64,000 nt of DNA, taken from the NCBI RefSeq assembly GCF_024363565.1, contig NZ_JAJEKE010000006.1, forward strand, positions 1-64,000. Reading direction: 5' to 3'. This DNA is from Lutispora saccharofermentans (GTDB lineage: Bacteria > Bacillota > Clostridia > Lutisporales > Lutisporaceae). The notes under the pieces were generated by a model. The model was not told where the DNA came from. It saw nothing but the letters and a program-made list of their open reading frames with translations, and made no database searches. The position numbers and the translations under genes were made by a program. Positions 40,210 to 58,565 of the stretch are shown piece by piece (position 1 is the stretch's first letter; each line of letters starts with the position of its first letter).

Positions 40210-40707
40210 TTAAAGCGTCGGCTTCCCTGCCTCCCAGTTTACGGGGCACGGCTTCTGAGTTTGATGCGCAGCAAGAACCCTAAGTATCTCATTAACGTTT
40301 CTTCCTATGGACAAATCATGAACCGAGGCATACCTTATCACTCCGTCAGGGTCTATTATGAATGTGCCTCTATAGGCTATGCCTGTTTCCTCATCCAGGA
40401 CATCATAGCTCCTTGACAAACTTTTTGTGTAATCCGATAAAATCGGGTAATCTACTTCTCCTATGGATTCCAACCATGCTTTGTGGCTATATACACTGTC
40501 AGGGTTTGCTCCTATGACTTGAGCATTGAACTTTTCAAAATCCTTTAACCTACGGTTAAACTCCGGCACCTCGCTTCCTCAAATAGGAGTGAAGTCAAGG
40601 GGATAGAAAAATAATACGACCCACTTTCCTGCATAATCTTTCATTGAGACTTTGCCTTTTGTGCTGTCCAAAGTAAAATCAGGCGCTTTTGTTCCTATTT
40701 TTATCAA
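40210..40707 (-). CDS. prxU: Selenocysteine-containing peroxiredoxin (in-frame TGA read as Sec43)
   Basis: Reduces peroxides. Upstream of the 120-residue frame starting MPEFNRR, the sequence continues in frame through TGA 40579-40581 as [15 protein letters not shown] and then [22 protein letters not shown]. The U sits exactly where AhpC/Prx enzymes have the peroxidatic Cys (FYPLDFTFVC). The resolving Cys is in [10 protein letters not shown] at the C-terminus. The total is 165 residues, as in 2-Cys Prx. Start is TTG 40707, with GAGGAGG seven bases upstream. Selenocysteine peroxiredoxins (PrxU) are known in clostridia. The alternative is a broken gene, which I consider unlikely given the intact coding sequence on both sides. 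Confidence 0.93.
40544..40560 (-). promoter_or_regulatory. Candidate SECIS hairpin of the selenoprotein peroxiredoxin gene
   Basis: Minus strand TTTAACC-GTA-GGTTAAA forms a seven-pair hairpin whose loop holds GU and begins 25 bases after the TGA. Bacterial SECIS elements place the loop about 16-37 bases after UGA, so distance and loop both fit. Confidence 0.7.
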
Positions 40708-41262: not shown

Positions 41263-42417
41263 TTATATGCTATTTAATATTTTATTTAATGCATCCAGAG
41301 CATAAATTATTTCTTTCTCCGTATTGAAGTGGCTGAAAGAAAAACGGACAGTTCCCTGGGGGAAGGTATCCAGAGTCTTATGAGCCGAAGGTGCACAATG
41401 AAGCCCGCATCGGGTCATTATGCCAAAGTCCTTATCCAGCAAATAGGATACCTCTGCATTATCCTTTCCTTCGCAATCTATTGATACGACAGCTGTTCTG
41501 CCTTCAATTCCGTCTAATCCTGCAAGCCTTACCCCTTCTAAAGCTTTAATGCCGTTAATGAATAAACCAGTAAGCTCCATTTCTGCCTTCCTGATATTCT
41601 CTATACCTTCTTTTTCAATGTATTTCAAAGCCTCGTTCAATCCGAAAATACCAGGTATATTTATAGTACCGCATTCAAATTTATCCGGCATGAAGGGCGG
41701 AATTTCTTCAGAGTCCGACATGCTTCCGGTCCCTCCCGATATCAAGGGTTCCATTAGGTCCGCCATTTCATCGGTGATGATAAAGCCGCCTATGCCCTGA
41801 GGCCCTAGAAGTCCCTTATGGCCAGTAAAAGCCAGGGCATCAATATTCATTTTCTTCATATCTATTTCAACTGCCCCTGCGGTTTGTGCAGAATCCACAA
41901 TAAATTTGATGCTGTTTTGCCTGCACAGCTCTCCCACTTCAGATATGGGCATGATCGTACCGCACACATTTGAAGCATGAGTCATTATCACTGCCTTTGT
42001 ATTATCCTTTATGCATTCCAGTATATCATTGGGGTTCAATTTCCCCTGAATGTCACATTTAACCTTCGTATATTCTACACCCTTTTTATGCAGCTGCATC
42101 ACAGGCCTCATGACTGCATTGTGCTCCATAGAAGTAACAATACAATGGTCTCCGGGCTTCAGAAGGCCTTTAATTATGAAATTTAAGCTTTGAGTTATAT
42201 TCTGAGTAAATATTACATTTTTACTGTTTGAATAACCAAAAAGACTGCATAGCCTTTCCCTTGCATCCAAGACTACTTCGGCTGTCGAGTAGGCACTTTT
42301 ATAGCCGCCTCTGTTTATATTGCTGCCTATATTTTCTATGTAATTTATCATAGCATGAGCTACACCTGGCGCCTTAGGATATGATGTAGCTCCATTATCC
42401 AAATATACTCGCTCCAC
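41263..42417 (-). CDS. Class V aminotransferase: cysteine desulfurase or selenocysteine lyase family
   Basis: A 384-residue PLP enzyme of the NifS/CsdB type. Features are YLDNGATSYPKAPGVAHAM (N-terminus), VIFTQNITQSLNFIIKGL, SMEHNAVMRPV, DSAQTAGAVEID (PLP Asp), FTGHKGLLGPQGIGGF (PLP Lys) and the C-terminal active region RCGLHCAPSAHKTL with the Cys. This subgroup is found next to YedE selenium transporters and is thought to release selenium or sulfur for selenophosphate. The neighbouring genes support selenium use. No assay exists here. Confidence 0.87.
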   Translation of the reverse strand: MERVYLDNGATSYPKAPGVAHAMINYIENIGSNINRGGYKSAYSTAEVVLDARERLCSLFGYSNSKNVIFTQNITQSLNFIIKGLLKPGDHCIVTSMEHNAVMRPVMQLHKKGVEYTKVKCDIQGKLNPNDILECIKDNTKAVIMTHASNVCGTIMPISEVGELCRQNSIKFIVDSAQTAGAVEIDMKKMNIDALAFTGHKGLLGPQGIGGFIITDEMADLMEPLISGGTGSMSDSEEIPPFMPDKFECGTINIPGIFGLNEALKYIEKEGIENIRKAEMELTGLFINGIKALEGVRLAGLDGIEGRTAVVSIDCEGKDNAEVSYLLDKDFGIMTRCGLHCAPSAHKTLDTFPQGTVRFSFSHFNTEKEIIYALDALNKILNSI

Positions 42418-42584: not shown

Positions 42585-43670
42585 TTGAAAGAAAATAAAG
42601 GAATTATTTTTACCGGGGCCGTAGTCGGTATTATAGCTGTGTTATTAGTCAAGTTGGGCAACCCCGGCAACATGGGTTTTTGCATAGCTTGCTTTATCAG
42701 GGACATTGCAGGCGCCTTAGGACTTCACAGAGCAGAAGTGGTGCAATATGTACGTCCTGAGATAATAGGCCTTGTCATCGGCGCTTTTTTAATGGCCATT
42801 GCCGGCAAAGAGTTCAGTGTGCGCGGCGGATCTGCACCCTTCTCCAGATTTATATTGGGCTTCATAGTGATGGTCGGTGCTTTAATGTTCTTAGGCTGTC
42901 CCTTAAGAATGATACTGAGACTTGCAGGCGGCGATCTAAATGCTATAGTAGGACTGGCAGGCTTCACAGCCGGGATATTCCTTGGCATAGTTTTTCTTAA
43001 CAAGGGCTTTAGCTTGAAAAGAACATATAGTCTCCCAACCTTTGAGGGATTACTTTTCCCCGGTGTTATAGCCGCATTATTCGTTATATTGCTTGCTGTT
43101 CCGTCCCTTCTCATCTTCAGCGAAAAAGGACCGGGAGCGGCTCATGCACCTATCATAGCAGCTTTGGCTGCCGGACTTATAGTAGGAGCATTGGCTCAGA
43201 AAACCAGATTATGCACGGTAGGCGGCATAAGAGACCTGATATTATTTAAGGACTGGCATCTTATTTCCGGCTTCATCGCCATATTAGCTGCAGCATTAAT
43301 TGGCAGCATAATCCTGGGACAATTCAAGCTTGGCTTTGCAGCTCAACCTATAGCCCATACGGATGGATTATGGAATTTCCTTGGCATGGCTTTAGCCGGC
43401 TTTGGCTCAGTCTTGCTGGGAGGATGCCCGTTAAGACAGCTGATACTGGCCTCCGAAGGTAATATAGATTCAGTGATAACTATAATGGGGCTTACCTTTG
43501 GTGCCGCCTTTGCTCATAATTTCAAGCTGGCCTCATCTGCCAATGGCCCTACACCAAATGGACAAATAGCGGTAGTTCTTGGTTTTATTGTGGTATTCGC
43601 TATTGCGTATTTCAATATTGAGAAGTCTGCTGACTTAAAAATGAAGGAGGATGTGCAAATTGAAGCATAG
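42585..43670 (+). CDS. yedE: YedE-type putative selenium transporter
   Basis: A 361-residue membrane protein with roughly nine to eleven hydrophobic segments. Family features are the duplicated YeeE/YedE repeat with conserved Cys: NMGFCIACFIRDIAGALGLH near residue 30, LFLGCPLRMILRLAGGDLNA near 105, and LGGCPLRQLILASEGNID near 290. YedE is linked by gene context to selenoprotein use and to the TusA-like partner that follows. The start is TTG 42585 after GGAGG. Confidence 0.9.
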   Translation: MKENKGIIFTGAVVGIIAVLLVKLGNPGNMGFCIACFIRDIAGALGLHRAEVVQYVRPEIIGLVIGAFLMAIAGKEFSVRGGSAPFSRFILGFIVMVGALMFLGCPLRMILRLAGGDLNAIVGLAGFTAGIFLGIVFLNKGFSLKRTYSLPTFEGLLFPGVIAALFVILLAVPSLLIFSEKGPGAAHAPIIAALAAGLIVGALAQKTRLCTVGGIRDLILFKDWHLISGFIAILAAALIGSIILGQFKLGFAAQPIAHTDGLWNFLGMALAGFGSVLLGGCPLRQLILASEGNIDSVITIMGLTFGAAFAHNFKLASSANGPTPNGQIAVVLGFIVVFAIAYFNIEKSADLKMKEDVQIEA

Positions 43671-44150: not shown

Positions 44151-44348
44151 TCATTGCTTCACTGCTTCATTTAATTTCTCCAGTAATGACTCTACATTAA
44201 AACCGTGAACCATGGCTGCCTCTTCCAGAGTTTCCGCTTGTGCCGACGGTCAGCCTACACAGCCCATTCCGAAGCTCATAAGAATCTCAATGGCTTCCGG
44301 ATATTTTCTTACTATTTCTCCTATGGTCATATCTTTATTTATTGACAT
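44151..44348 (-). CDS. DUF1858 protein with in-frame TGA (candidate selenocysteine at residue 33)
   Basis: A 65-residue protein with the DUF1858 (hybrid-cluster-associated) pattern. Start is ATG 44348 after AGGAGG seven bases upstream. It reads MSINKDMTIGEIVRKYPEA to FGMGCVG, then TGA at 44250-44252, then PSAQAETLEEAAMVHGFN and ends KLNEAVKQ. In the family the motif is GMGCxGCP, so the TGA takes the place of the second Cys. Intact sequence on both sides and the selenium genes next to it favour selenocysteine. The short frame ending at TGA would be a truncated protein. Confidence 0.88.
44220..44230 (-). promoter_or_regulatory. Candidate SECIS hairpin of the DUF1858 gene
   Basis: Minus strand CTCT-GGA-AGAG begins 19 bases after the TGA, loop at about 23 bases. 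Stem is only four pairs and the loop lacks U, so this is weaker than the other two. Other folds are possible. Confidence 0.35.
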
Positions 44349-53359: not shown

Positions 53360-54325
53360 ATGACTATTCATATAAAAAAACCGGCACGTGCTGTTATCAT
53401 AGCCTTACTTATCATGCTTATTGCATGCAGCTGCAACAGTACCGGCAAAATCAATGCAAATGCTGTTGAGACCAAAGTACCGGAGGCCAAAGAAGTCAAG
53501 GAAACCAAAGAAGTTAAAGAAAATAAGGAAGATAAGGAAATCATCGAGGACAATAAATCTGCTCAAGGTGAAATTAAATTTCCGTTTAAACCGACCCCAA
53601 GTCAAATCAATAAAAATATATTGATATTAGGAATAGATGCCAGAAAGAACGAACCGGCCAGAGCCGACACAATTATTTTGGTGAATATAAGAAATGAGAG
53701 AGTCAATTTTATTTCCATACCCAGGGATACTTTGATAAAGCTAAAAGGGAAAGGCACCCACAAGATCAATGCATCCTATGCTTTCGGCGGCATTGGACTA
53801 TGTAAATCTACTGTAGAAAATCTTCTTGACACAAAGATTGACAATTACCTCGTATTTAATTTCAGAGCTATACAAAAAGGTGTGGACGCTCTGGGCGGAT
53901 TCACTGTGACAATTCCCCAGACAATAAAGATAAGGGACCGGGAGCTTAATAAATGCTTTACGCTAAAAAAAGGCAGCATCAAGCTCAATGGGATACAGAC
54001 TCTCGAATATTTGAGATATAGAAGCGATGGCAAAGGAGACATAGGCAGGGTTTACAGGCAGCAGGAGTTCATAAAGGATCTGCAGAGCAGCTTCTTAAAA
54101 CTGGAGAATGTACCTCTGATACCCAAAGCTTACTTGGCTATCCGCGATGAGATCAAAACAGATATGGATGCTTCCCATATGGCGTCCTATTTTATCAGCG
54201 GTTATAAGCTGAGAAATAATTTTGAGTATCACACATTAAAAGGTTACAGCAAATTTATAGATAAGGTTTCTTATTATATACTCTATCAAAGCAGCATAAA
54301 AAGCATCAAAGATGTATTAAAATAA
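53360..54325 (+). CDS. LytR-CpsA-Psr (LCP) family protein
   Basis: A 321-residue envelope enzyme that transfers anionic polymers or glycopolymers to peptidoglycan. Residues 1-27 are the signal/anchor (ARAVIIALLIMLIACSC). A Lys/Glu-rich stalk follows (EVKETKEVKENKEDKE, about residues 45-68). The catalytic domain has NILILGIDARKNEPARADT, FISIPRDTLIK (conserved Arg), INASYAFGG and LEYLRYRSDGKGDIGRVYRQ. The start is ATG 53360 (GTG at 53345 also possible). A terminator follows the stop. Confidence 0.93.
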   Translation: MTIHIKKPARAVIIALLIMLIACSCNSTGKINANAVETKVPEAKEVKETKEVKENKEDKEIIEDNKSAQGEIKFPFKPTPSQINKNILILGIDARKNEPARADTIILVNIRNERVNFISIPRDTLIKLKGKGTHKINASYAFGGIGLCKSTVENLLDTKIDNYLVFNFRAIQKGVDALGGFTVTIPQTIKIRDRELNKCFTLKKGSIKLNGIQTLEYLRYRSDGKGDIGRVYRQQEFIKDLQSSFLKLENVPLIPKAYLAIRDEIKTDMDASHMASYFISGYKLRNNFEYHTLKGYSKFIDKVSYYILYQSSIKSIKDVLK

Positions 54326-54339
54326 ATCGCTCATACAGC

Positions 54340-54376
54340 AAAGGCATCCGCTTGAGGTAAAGCGAATGCCTTTTTC
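54340..54376 (+). terminator. Terminator after the LCP gene
   Basis: A stem AAAGGCATTCGCTT-like (AAAGGCATCCGCTT / AAGCGAATGCCTTT) with TTTTT to the right. One wobble pair is present. Confidence 0.88.
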
Positions 54377-54475
54377 ATTGTTGTCAGAGTGATATAATGG
54401 AACCTTCATGATAGATAGTTATCTTTTATAAGCTTTATATCAGCATATGCATTTTGCATTTTTAATAATGTGGCT

Positions 54476-55190
54476 TTATCTATTTTTCATGGCCTCTTCA
54501 ACGGCAACCGCAACTGCGACGGTGGCGCCAACCATTGGGTTATTGCCCATTCCTATGAAACCCATCATTTCAACATGAGCCGGGACAGAGGATGAACCAG
54601 CGAACTGGGCATCAGAATGCATTCTTCCCATTGTATCCGTCATGCCATAGGATGCATTCTTCCCATTGTATCCGTCATGCCATAGGATGCAGGGCCTGCT
54701 GCCATATTATCAGGATGGAGGGTCCTCCCGGTGCCTCCTCCCGATGCTACTGAAAAGTATTTCTTGCCTGACTCATAACATTCCTTCTTATAAGTGCCTG
54801 CGACAGGATGCTGAAATCTTGTAGCAGAAATGCAAAGCATTTTGTTTCTTCTTTTAACAGCATTGCACCAAGATTGCCATGTCCGATACCCACTTTTCTT
54901 TGATCTGCAACAGAATCCGGTATGCAGAATGCTTGAAGGCCTTCCCCGATGGCCTCTGCAGCACCAACTGCCTCTTTGTACTCCTTCTTAATAGCTATAG
55001 CTGCACCAGCCATATAAGCCCAGCATGCATTTTCGAAGCATATAGGCTGGATGGATTTAACTATGCCATATACATCGATTCCTTGTTCATCACATATTCT
55101 TTTTGCATGTTCTATAGAATCAATACCATATTTATTTAAAACATCATTGATTTTATTGATTCTTCTTTCATAACCTTCAAATAATTCCAT
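54476..55190 (-). pseudogene. GGGtGRT protein gene with an internal deletion and a frameshifting duplication
   Basis: The 5' part (55190 to about 54840) encodes the start of the GGGtGRT family (MELFEGYERRINKINDVL ... GNLGAMLLKEETKCFAFL). It is then joined, out of frame, to the later part TRFQHPVAGTYKKECYESGK and SVASGGGTGRTLHPDNMAAG; the roughly 130-residue middle is absent. Near the 3' end a 35-bp direct duplication (54620-54689) adds a second frameshift before the remaining end (VEMMGFIGMGNNPMVGATVA). No full protein can be made without two frame changes. The true stop TAA is at 54476. An assembly error is possible. Confidence 0.8.
54620..54689. repeat. 35-bp tandem duplication inside the GGGtGRT gene
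   Basis: Two identical 35-base units occupy 54620-54654 and 54655-54689 (beginning CATTCTTCCCATTGTATCCG). The extra unit is not a multiple of three, so it shifts the frame. It occurs once more in part at the flanks. Confidence 0.92.
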
Positions 55191-56115: not shown

Positions 56116-56177
56116 AAAAATTAAGATAACGGAAGAGAATCCCTGCATGAAAACATTGCAGGGATTCTCTTCCGTTA
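56116..56177 (-). terminator. Terminator of the hydrogenase operon
   Basis: A perfect 21-pair stem starting TAACGGAAGAGAATCCCTGC with its complement, followed by CTTAATTTTTG on the minus strand. It comes six bases after the stop of the Mop gene. Confidence 0.92.
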
Positions 56178-56183
56178 CAGCTT

Positions 56184-56402
56184 TCAGTGCCTTACAAACA
56201 CGACATTTATAGCCTTTACCAATGCATCGACCTTATCGCCTTTTTGAAAACCAACCTCATCTAAGCTTTCCTTCGTCATCACGGACGTAAATCTTAATGC
56301 ATCGCCGGCTCATGTGCCGCGCATTTTTATTTCTGCCATAATGCCGTCCGCCTTGATTTCTTCAATTTCGCCCGATATTTTGTTTCTTACTCCTGCATTC
56401 AA
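56184..56402 (-). CDS. Molybdopterin-binding (Mop) protein with in-frame TGA (candidate Sec31)
   Basis: A 72-residue Mop/TOBE domain protein, usually for molybdate or tungstate storage. The start is TTG 56402 with GGAGG eight bases upstream. It reads MNAGVRNKISGEIEEIKADG and AEIKMRGT, then TGA at 56310-56312, then AGDALRFTSVMTKESLDEVG and FQKGDKVDALVKAINVVFVR. Both parts are typical of the family and in the same frame, so reading TGA as selenocysteine gives a complete domain. It is the last gene of the hydrogenase operon. Without readthrough the protein would be a 30-residue fragment. Confidence 0.88.
56274..56287 (-). promoter_or_regulatory. Candidate SECIS hairpin of the Mop gene
   Basis: Minus strand CGTC-CGTGAT-GACG is a small hairpin beginning 22 bases after the TGA; its loop contains GU at about 28 bases. 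The stem is short (four pairs). Confidence 0.4.
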
Positions 56403-56484
56403 AATCCATACCTCCATAATATTTTTTTGTAACGCAATAATATTATTTGTAAAAATTTTTTTTAAAATACATGATTTCAAGCCT

Positions 56485-57495
56485 TCAGCATATCCTTGGC
56501 AGCATATTCCCTTCCAAGGATGCCAGTATCCTTTTTCCTCCAAAAAAATTTTCTATATAAACATTTGTGTTTTCAGCATCTTCAACGCAACCAATTATCT
56601 GGGCCTCCTTGCCATCATCAAGGACTCTGATTCGAGCGAGTATTTCAGTTGATTCCGCCTTATCAGCTACAATTACGGCCCTTCCTTCGCAGGCTAAATA
56701 TAAAGGGTCTATTCCTAATAGTTCATTTAAGGCCTGTACTTCTTTTCTTATGGGGATGTTCTCCTCGAATATGTGTATGCTTTTTCCGGCGTGTTCTGCA
56801 ATTTCATTTAGAGCAGTGGCAATTCCGCCTCTTGTAGGATCTTTCATCAGCTTTATGCTCTCCATATACCCATGGAGAGCTTTAATGATATGGTTTATTG
56901 GCGCGCAATCACTCATAAAGCTTCCATCTACCTTTAAGCCATAGCGATCCCTGGATATCGCTGTGCCATGCTCTGCTATCGTGCCTGTTACGATGATATC
57001 ATCGCCCGGCATAATTTTTTTGGTCACATAGCTTTTATCCAATATTCCAACACCTGAGGTATTGATAAAAATTCCGTCGGCACAGCCTTTCTCAACGACC
57101 TTCGTATCACCCGTAATAATTTTGACTCCCGATGCATCAGCAGTGCGGGCCATAGATTCAGCAATCCGATCCAAAGCTCCTATTGGAAAGCCTTCTTCTA
57201 TTATCAATCCGCAGCTCAGATATAAAGGCTTTGCCCCCGCTACCGCCAAGTCATTCACGGTGCCGCATACAGCAAGCTTGCCTATATCCCCTCCGGAAAA
57301 AAATATAGGCTTTACTACAAAAGAATCAGTTGTAAAAGCGAATCTGCCTGATTGTGCTTCAAACACTGCAGAATCCAGTCCGTCGATGAGCTTCTGATTA
57401 TTGAAATGCCTATAAAAGATATCTTTTATTAAATTTCTTGTGCTAATGCCTCCGCTGCCGTGGGCCAAAGTAATTTTATCTTCGTTCAAATACAT
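56485..57495 (-). CDS. hypE: Hydrogenase maturation protein HypE
   Basis: Dehydrates the carbamoyl group on its C-terminal Cys to the cyanide ligand of the NiFe site. The 336-residue product has LAHGSGGISTRNLIKDIF, FTTDSFVVKPIFFSGGDIGK, GTVNDLAVAGAKPLYLS, and the C-terminal end LPRIC with the modified Cys. The first ATG at 57495 has AGAAGG only two bases upstream; TTG 57489 has better spacing and may be used. It overlaps the hypD stop. Confidence 0.95.
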   Translation of the reverse strand: MYLNEDKITLAHGSGGISTRNLIKDIFYRHFNNQKLIDGLDSAVFEAQSGRFAFTTDSFVVKPIFFSGGDIGKLAVCGTVNDLAVAGAKPLYLSCGLIIEEGFPIGALDRIAESMARTADASGVKIITGDTKVVEKGCADGIFINTSGVGILDKSYVTKKIMPGDDIIVTGTIAEHGTAISRDRYGLKVDGSFMSDCAPINHIIKALHGYMESIKLMKDPTRGGIATALNEIAEHAGKSIHIFEENIPIRKEVQALNELLGIDPLYLACEGRAVIVADKAESTEILARIRVLDDGKEAQIIGCVEDAENTNVYIENFFGGKRILASLEGNMLPRIC

Positions 57496-58565
57496 CACCT
57501 TCTATATCTGTAATATACAGAACAAGAACCTTCTGTCGATACCATACAAGGGCCATAAGGGTTTGCCGGGCTGCATGCGGAATCAAACAAGCGGCATTCC
57601 CCGGGGCTCCTTTTTCCCATGAGTATATCACCGCAGCTGCATTCCATTGCGGCTTCATGGTCCCGCGGGCTGAGATTAAAATTATATACAGCGTCATACT
57701 TCATATATCTTTCCTTTAATACCAATGCCGAATCACCTACTAAGCCTATTCCCCTCCATAGACCTTTAGAAGCGGTGAATACCTCCCCCATCAATGATTT
57801 TGCCTTTTCATTGCCATTAAAGCTGACACAGCGCTTATATATATTCTTTAGTTCTGGCTTTTTGTCCCCGCATTTGCTTTGCACTATTAAATATATTGCC
57901 CCCAATATATCGGCGGCATCAAAGCCTGATATGACGGAGCAGATATCATGCTTATCAGGCAGGAAGCGGAAATATTCCTCCCCCATTACGGTGGCTACAT
58001 GACCGGGGCATATCATTCCGCCGAGCTCTCCATCATGTTTTTCCAGCACTATTTCCAGAATCGGCGGCATCAGCCTTATGGAGGTCAATACGTTAATATT
58101 GTGTATCGATTTTTCTTCAGCATGCCTTATCATAGCTGCAATAGCAGGCGCTGTGGTTTCAAAGCCGACTGCAAGGAAAACGACCGTCCTATCCCTGTTA
58201 TTTTCAGCTATTTCCAATGCTTCTAGAGGCGAGTAAACAACTGCCGGCTTTTTATCCTTTGTCCTGCTATTATCCAGACTTGTTTCTGTCCCTTTAACCC
58301 TTACCATATCTCCGAAGGTGGCTACAATGACATTGTCCATCATCATAAGCCTGACCGCATCATCAATAAAGCTTGCCGGAGCGACACAGATAGGGCAGCC
58401 CGGACCGGATAAAAGCTTTATACCGGGAGGCAGCACCGAGGAAATGCCGTATTTTGCAATAGATTGGGTATGAGTTCCGCAAACTTCCATTATTTTTATT
58501 TCTTTGACCTCAGCCATATATGTCCATATAGCCTTTATCAGCTCAGCAATAAGGTTGTTACCCAT
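57495..58565 (-). CDS. hypD: Hydrogenase maturation protein HypD
   Basis: Fe-S protein that, with HypC, holds the Fe(CN)2CO group during assembly. The 356-residue product has EVCGTHTQSIAKYGISSVLP, LSGPGCPICVAPASFIDDAV, VGFETTAPAIAAMIRHAEEK and CPGHVATVMG. The C-terminal [4Fe-4S] region has GDILMGKRSPGECRLFDSAC and YGPCMVSTEGSC. It follows hypC by three bases. Confidence 0.96.
   Translation of the reverse strand: MGNNLIAELIKAIWTYMAEVKEIKIMEVCGTHTQSIAKYGISSVLPPGIKLLSGPGCPICVAPASFIDDAVRLMMMDNVIVATFGDMVRVKGTETSLDNSRTKDKKPAVVYSPLEALEIAENNRDRTVVFLAVGFETTAPAIAAMIRHAEEKSIHNINVLTSIRLMPPILEIVLEKHDGELGGMICPGHVATVMGEEYFRFLPDKHDICSVISGFDAADILGAIYLIVQSKCGDKKPELKNIYKRCVSFNGNEKAKSLMGEVFTASKGLWRGIGLVGDSALVLKERYMKYDAVYNFNLSPRDHEAAMECSCGDILMGKRSPGECRLFDSACSPANPYGPCMVSTEGSCSVYYRYRR

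Follow-up and report, generated by a model that had tools for sequence, protein, structure and literature searches.

Sec-Mop, an apparently undescribed family of predicted selenoproteins with the molbindin fold in anaerobic bacteria

In a stretch of 64,000 nucleotides of the Lutispora saccharofermentans genome (contig NZ_JAJEKE010000006.1, positions 1 to 64,000, hereafter the window), a small gene for a Mop/TOBE (molbindin) protein carries an in-frame UGA at codon 31 that is predicted, close to certainly, to be decoded as selenocysteine (Sec or U) under the direction of a downstream SECIS hairpin. This degree of confidence comes from more than 30 relatives in other anaerobic bacteria, distributed over several GTDB classes, in which both the UGA and the hairpin are kept. 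The proteins, here called Sec-Mop, apparently constitute an undescribed selenoprotein family tying selenium to molybdenum/tungsten handling. Taken as a whole, the reading that Sec-Mop is a SECIS-directed selenoprotein, forms an oxyanion-binding hexamer, bears a chemically active Sec and is synthesized in a selenium-dependent manner appears to us quite probable.

The gene, its in-frame UGA and its relatives

The gene and its local signals are as follows.

56184..56402 (-), Mop/TOBE (molbindin) gene of 72 aa with Sec at residue 31, running from a TTG start to a TGA stop (sequence and homologues)
56310..56312 (-), in-frame UGA predicted to be read as selenocysteine, codon 31, kept in all close homologues; position at the tip of the beta2-beta3 hairpin from an AlphaFold model
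56411..56415 (-), Shine-Dalgarno GGAGG, 8 nt 5' of the TTG at 56402 (sequence)
56128..56176 (-), perfect 20-bp inverted repeat aacggaagagaatccctgca / tgcagggattctcttccgtt directly 3' of the stop, likely terminator (sequence)

The minus-strand frame from 56402 to 56184 contains one internal TGA (56312-56310) and is otherwise intact to the terminal TGA, in agreement with the first-pass annotation, which had described a single in-frame TGA inside a 72-codon Mop gene. Its further statements, that the two flanks of the TGA belong to the same family in the same frame and that a GGAGG precedes the TTG at 56402, were also borne out: Pfam TOBE (PF03459) matched both flanks in one frame and one profile (30.6 bits over residues 6-67, cut-off 22.3), and the GGAGG was found at 56415-56411. 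With the TIGR00638 Mop model, the window protein scored 34.4 bits, below the curated cut-off of 55, and the scores elsewhere were 40-51 in other Sec forms and 57.5 in one non-Sec sister.

When genome_contigs was scanned once with the window protein, TGA was found at the equivalent place or places in all 20 loci, two of which matched over the second half only, with the upstream part readable through Sec codons. Further whole genomes also had the TGA, including those of isolates, closed chromosomes and one relative of the same genus; four of the Sec-Mop carriers are single-contig genomes (G503, G691, G408 and G649), and the named carriers are Clostridium drakei SL1, Sporotomaculum syntrophicum FB, Ca. 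Formimonas warabiya DCMF and Syntrophomonas wolfei subsp. methylbutyratica. With the TGA kept in every close homologue, its conservation is far beyond chance. The occurrence of Cys or Sec at residue 31 in close homologues had been proposed as a check, and the outcome was Sec (TGA) in all and Cys in none; Cys was likewise not found at the Sec position among all genome_contigs loci, whole-genome homologues, the sister clade and ordinary Mops.

Many Sec-Mop genes have two TGAs, either as 'MUVGGU' or as Sec14 and Sec28, and the sequences were sorted by arrangement: type A, 'M-U-V-G-G-U', with Sec28 and Sec32; type B, 'M-R-G-T-U', represented by the window gene, with Sec31 and one residue deleted; type C, 'M-[STA]-[VM]-[DE]-G-U', with Sec32; and type D, 'G-x-[IV]-U ... 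M-U-M-G', with Sec14, Sec28 and a shorter hairpin. An RLGGU variant was present in one later genome (L124). Neither Sec nor Cys occupies the Sec places in the sister clade E ('VGDNEITSVMT') or in ordinary Mops, including the second Mop of the same genome (G000:C22:35128-35325). After masking of Sec, a tree placed types A, B and C together (92/89) and B inside A, indicating that the window lineage probably lost Sec28, while D stood beside E without resolution; the tree is based on 72 columns, and many of its forks are open. The first-pass annotation had held that homologues with neither Cys nor Sec would speak against its proposal. Such homologues were found in the sister clade and among ordinary Mops, and none in the Sec clade; since they either fall outside the clade of Sec genes or have no hairpin, they constitute a control, not a refutation.

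The downstream hairpin and the decoding machinery

56270..56291 (-), predicted bacterial SECIS hairpin UUUA-CGUC-[CGUGAU]-GACG-AAGG, inner stem 56287-56284 with 56277-56274 (synonymous-site comparison)

A hairpin with GU in its loop, as had been noticed earlier, was located at 56291-56270 with the loop CGUGAU, and in all Sec-type sequences compared the loop begins 23-26 nt downstream of the last UGA. The peptide TSVMT following the beta-hairpin is nearly the same in Sec genes and in clade E, whereas its codons separate the two (ACG 30/30 where Thr is encoded, TCC 31/32, GTG 31/32 and last ACG 31/32 for 32 Sec-type genes; ACG 0/8, TCC 0/10 and last ACG 0/10 for 10 clade-E genes without TGA, which mostly use ACT/ACC, TCG, GTT/GTA, ATG and ACT/ACC). 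At other conserved residues of the Sec genes, the codon choice varies freely. Since one clade-E gene (L137), a non-Sec gene, has ACG TCA GTG ATG ACG, the codon separation is strong but not absolute.

The 10 TGA-less sister genes, with their different codons for TSVMT, cannot form the hairpin. When written as (CUC)A(CGUC)CGUGAU(GACG)C(GAG), its inner pairs were kept at 95/96 in 24 distinct Sec sequences versus 18/36 in 9 clade-E sequences, and the outer pair 30-47 was C-G in 16 and U-A in 5 Sec sequences, pairing being possible in 1/9 of clade E. An alternative hairpin in the same region, UCAC-GUCC-GUGA, also fits most sequences, and in C. drakei its pair 30-39 compensates and the preferred hairpin is down one pair; GU is in the loop of both. 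From the synonymous sites, the predicted SECIS hairpin is under RNA-level selection in the TGA-bearing genes.

In type A genes (L010, L018, L027, G503, G439, G691 and others), a second short inverted repeat was observed directly 3' of the second TGA, ahead of the SECIS hairpin; its pairing partners change (GGAU/AUCC, GGGG/CCCC, GGCC/GGCC), and it is possibly part of a two-hairpin recoding signal for two UGAs. Syntrophomonas-type genes (G408, G649, G554, G537 and others) have an extra UGA at residue 14 in beta1, 65 nt 5' of the SECIS loop.

The window contains other TGA-bearing genes:

40579..40581 (-), in-frame TGA (TPIU) in the gene of a selenoprotein peroxiredoxin
44250..44252 (-), in-frame TGA (CVGU) in the gene of a selenoprotein with DUF1858, next to yedE

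The first-pass annotation had pointed to other Sec genes in the window, naming the peroxiredoxin, and the DUF1858 protein can be added to it. It had also asked for selA, selB, selC and selD, and all four are present in this genome, clustered as selC-selB-selA-selD within about 5 kb of contig C3 (tRNA-Sec, 72.6 bits and tRNA-SeC by ARAGORN; selB, 400 bits; selD, itself TGA-containing, 401 bits; selA, between selB and selD, recognised by sequence and not by profile). SelB was found in 18/18 Sec-Mop genomes and 12/12 comparison genomes. In a phylum sample, 15/15 Sec-Mop genomes had SelB versus 263/398 overall (p = 0.0035), a co-occurrence that is supportive but weak because SelB is also present in the non-Sec sisters and in 66% of the phylum sample.

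The original proposal of Sec in a Mop-type protein is thus supported by TGA conservation, by the hairpin at synonymous sites and by the presence of selA, selB, selC and selD. It is very improbable that the UGA is instead read by near-cognate readthrough or as another residue such as Trp or Arg: the sequence alone would be compatible with this, but SelB accompanies Sec-Mop in all 18 carrier genomes tested, tRNA-Sec is present in this one, the SECIS-like hairpin keeps a constant distance and other UGA selenoproteins lie in the window. The chance that the UGA is an ordinary stop or a sequencing error, leaving a pseudogene or two short peptides, is next to negligible. A 30-residue first part and an in-frame second part could in principle arise in this way, but the same TGA site recurs in independent genomes of several GTDB classes, the frame is intact to the end and the hairpin is kept at synonymous sites. 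Sequencing error in particular, which had been named as a possible refutation, was excluded together with a pseudogene because the TGA is kept across independent genomes in every close homologue, including that of the same genus.

Predicted fold, gene neighbourhoods and the role of Sec

Molbindins of the Mop/Tub type are hexamers with eight molybdate or tungstate ions. An AlphaFold2 monomer model of the window protein, built with 16 relatives, had a pLDDT of 87 and contained strands at residues 7-18, 22-31 and 34-43, then a helix, and strands at 57-62 and 67-71; in this model beta2 ends with Sec31, at the beta2-beta3 turn. The top Foldseek matches in the PDB were C. pasteurianum MopII, ModE, ModG, S. 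ovata Mop and E. limosum Tub. In Tub, tungstate is liganded by the backbones of Arg6 and Ala61, by Ser4 and Lys60 through their side chains and by Ser40 from the adjacent subunit, and is also held on the threefold axis by the backbones of Ala20-Asn22 (PMC11980592). Arg6, Lys63, Ala64 and Thr43 of the window protein are equivalent to the Tub type-2 ligands Arg6, Lys60, Ala61 and Ser40, so that 4/5 of the type-2 set (Ser4, Arg6, Ser40, Lys60, Ala61) are kept, Ser40 as Thr43. Ser4 is replaced by Gly4 in the whole subfamily, and oxyanion binding may be altered by this replacement. By homology, the protein is likely a hexamer binding molybdate/tungstate.

The neighbouring genes that bear on the function are listed below.

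56485..57498 (-), hypE, immediately upstream, local neighbour only (TIGR02124, 419 bits)
57495..58565 (-), hypD, upstream, local neighbour only (TIGR00075, 382 bits)
42585..43670 (+), putative selenium transporter of the YedE family, no other copy found in the genome (TIGR04112, 517 bits)
41263..42417 (-), class-V aminotransferase (Sec lyase/cysteine desulfurase-like), beside yedE (PF00266, 290 bits)

The first-pass annotation had placed the gene at the end of a hydrogenase operon. The upstream hypD-hypE pair indeed exists here, but clustering of the genes around 42 loci gave no conserved operon and no conserved hyp linkage, hypD/hypE adjoining the Sec-Mop gene in this genome only, and for this reason the hydrogenase context was dropped as a general explanation. 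The neighbours that recur are YedE, YedF, a SirA/TusA-like protein, a TIGR01977/Sec-lyase-like aminotransferase, a double-cubane reductase with its activase and a Se/S-carrier DUF3343 protein; MFS_MOT1 molybdate transporters also recur near subfamily loci, and SelD, recognised by sequence, adjoins at one locus (G537). The only YedE of the present genome lies 12.6 kb from the Sec-Mop gene, in the window. In 6 genomes (G000, G018, G503, G435, G537, G693), YedE was no more than 13.5 kb away from the gene, against 0.22 expected (Poisson 1e-7), where the distance was chosen post hoc and G000 and G018 are of one genus. Selenium neighbours occur at about one third of the loci and are mostly not in the same operon. 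Non-Sec sister genes (G693, G713, G453, G578) have the same kind of neighbours, indicating that the selenium link is a property of the subfamily and not of Sec alone, and that Sec is unnecessary for whatever ties the protein to selenium genes.

A role in the maturation of selenium-dependent Mo hydroxylases was considered and rejected, as YqeB, the marker of these enzymes, was present in just 8/18 Sec-Mop genomes. At one locus (L019), a molybdenum hydroxylase (Ald_Xan_dh_C) fragment lies downstream of Sec-Mop, at +728 after the Mop start. In the window, the peroxiredoxin and DUF1858 TGA genes flank the class-V aminotransferase and yedE, making up a small selenium island.

The comparison shows UGA codon 31 to be under selection as a Sec codon, directed by the downstream hairpin, with selA, selB, selC and selD at hand. 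In the mechanism that we propose, the product would assemble into a hexamer that, judging from the fold and the conserved ligand residues, holds molybdate/tungstate, possibly another oxyanion, at its subunit interfaces and buffers the metal for Mo/W enzymes. Its selenolate, from its position on the beta2-beta3 hairpin and its neighbours, would have a chemical role, serving as a soft ligand or, in proteins with two Sec (UxxxU), as a redox-active pair. Since synthesis of the protein needs Sec, the oxyanion store would be formed only if there is enough selenium for the Sec/Mo or Sec/W enzymes served.

A chemical role of Sec is favoured over a pure selenium-dependent translational gate because its positions are fixed, the UxxxU spacing is maintained, the hairpin is lengthened and two Sec are kept; the gate and a selenium-carrier role are both still live. 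In a more specific form, the Mop hexamer would be an oxyanion storage or carrier particle, as opposed to a thiol-type enzyme, whose hairpin selenolates coordinate or reduce Mo/W (or hold Se), coupling selenium to Mo/W supply in a way for which sulfur is unfit, hence the lack of a Cys form; this we offer tentatively, as an idea that may well prove wrong.

That Sec has no chemistry of its own and the UGA simply stops translation at codon 14-32 under low selenium, with the molybdate/tungstate store made only when selenium is available, seems somewhat unlikely. The Sec positions and number do vary (31/32 alone, 28+32, 14+28), Cys never substitutes, Cys partners are generally absent and Sec-less sister proteins exist, all as would be expected from such a switch; however, one UGA would be enough for it, yet most lineages keep two, only three positions carry Sec, type A keeps the UxxxU spacing constant, and around Sec the hairpin loop is longer in types A-C than in the sister clade. 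It is unlikely that the protein, instead of storing molybdate/tungstate, is a carrier of selenium or a binder of selenium oxyanions, whether by holding selenite/selenate in the TOBE pocket or by holding reduced Se for SelD on the selenolates. The linkage with YedE, YedF, SirA-like, Se/S-carrier, Sec-lyase-like and once SelD genes in both Sec and non-Sec forms, together with the change of Ser4 to Gly4 in the pocket, is consistent with this, but most of the molybdate/tungstate ligand residues are retained, a MOT1-type molybdate transporter recurs nearby and many loci are without selenium neighbours.

Relation to known systems and a further feature of the window

Like Tub (tungbindin) of Eubacterium limosum and Mop of Clostridium pasteurianum/Sporomusa ovata, Sec-Mop is a single TOBE domain of about 70 aa with the same predicted fold, retaining Arg6, Lys60/63, Ala61/64 and Ser/Thr at 40/43. 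It differs from them in that one Sec or a pair of them lies at or close to the beta2-beta3 hairpin, the loop of this hairpin is longer in types A-C, Gly replaces Ser4 throughout the subfamily and selenium genes are often found nearby. ModG and the C-terminal di-Mop domain of ModE share the fold (predicted here) and the oxyanion-site residues, but their domains are tandem or fused and without Sec, whereas Sec-Mop is a single free domain.

An inventory of 2026 lists 119 prokaryotic selenoprotein families/subfamilies, most of them thioredoxin-like or redox proteins, and the Mop/TOBE family is absent from it (PMC13188914). As in the selenoproteins listed there, Sec-Mop combines a UGA with a downstream SECIS hairpin, and its carriers are mostly anaerobes. 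Cys homologues exist for almost all prokaryotic selenoproteins (PMC12013277), unlike Sec-Mop, of which no Cys form was found; methods based on Sec/Cys pairs would therefore miss it. The selenium cluster defined by comparative genomics, YedE-YedF-SirA-Sec lyase-DUF3343-CoA activase-dehydratase (PMC5322559), comprises largely the genes that recur beside the Sec-Mop subfamily, and Mop/TOBE is not mentioned in the main text of that paper. NCBIfam of June 2026 has a generic Mop model only and none for the Sec form, and no described Mop/TOBE selenoprotein was found in the open-access literature. The suspicion voiced at the outset that no Mop selenoprotein had been described was upheld in all three sources.

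A selenoprotein family is thereby apparently added on the molbindin/TOBE fold, known for oxyanion binding rather than thiol redox chemistry. As standard translation reads Sec-Mop genes as truncated, the protein is probably missing from the annotations of those acetogens, syntrophs and sulfate reducers that rely on formate dehydrogenases containing Sec, Mo and W. It would provide a concrete link from selenium to Mo/W supply that is testable in cultured organisms.

Elsewhere in the window, the GGGtGRT gene (54100-55190, minus strand; Pfam PF14057) has an ORF covering only the first ~121 of 327 profile positions and a frameshift beside a duplicated stretch (SYGMTDTMGRMH, present twice), and is either a pseudogene or an assembly error.
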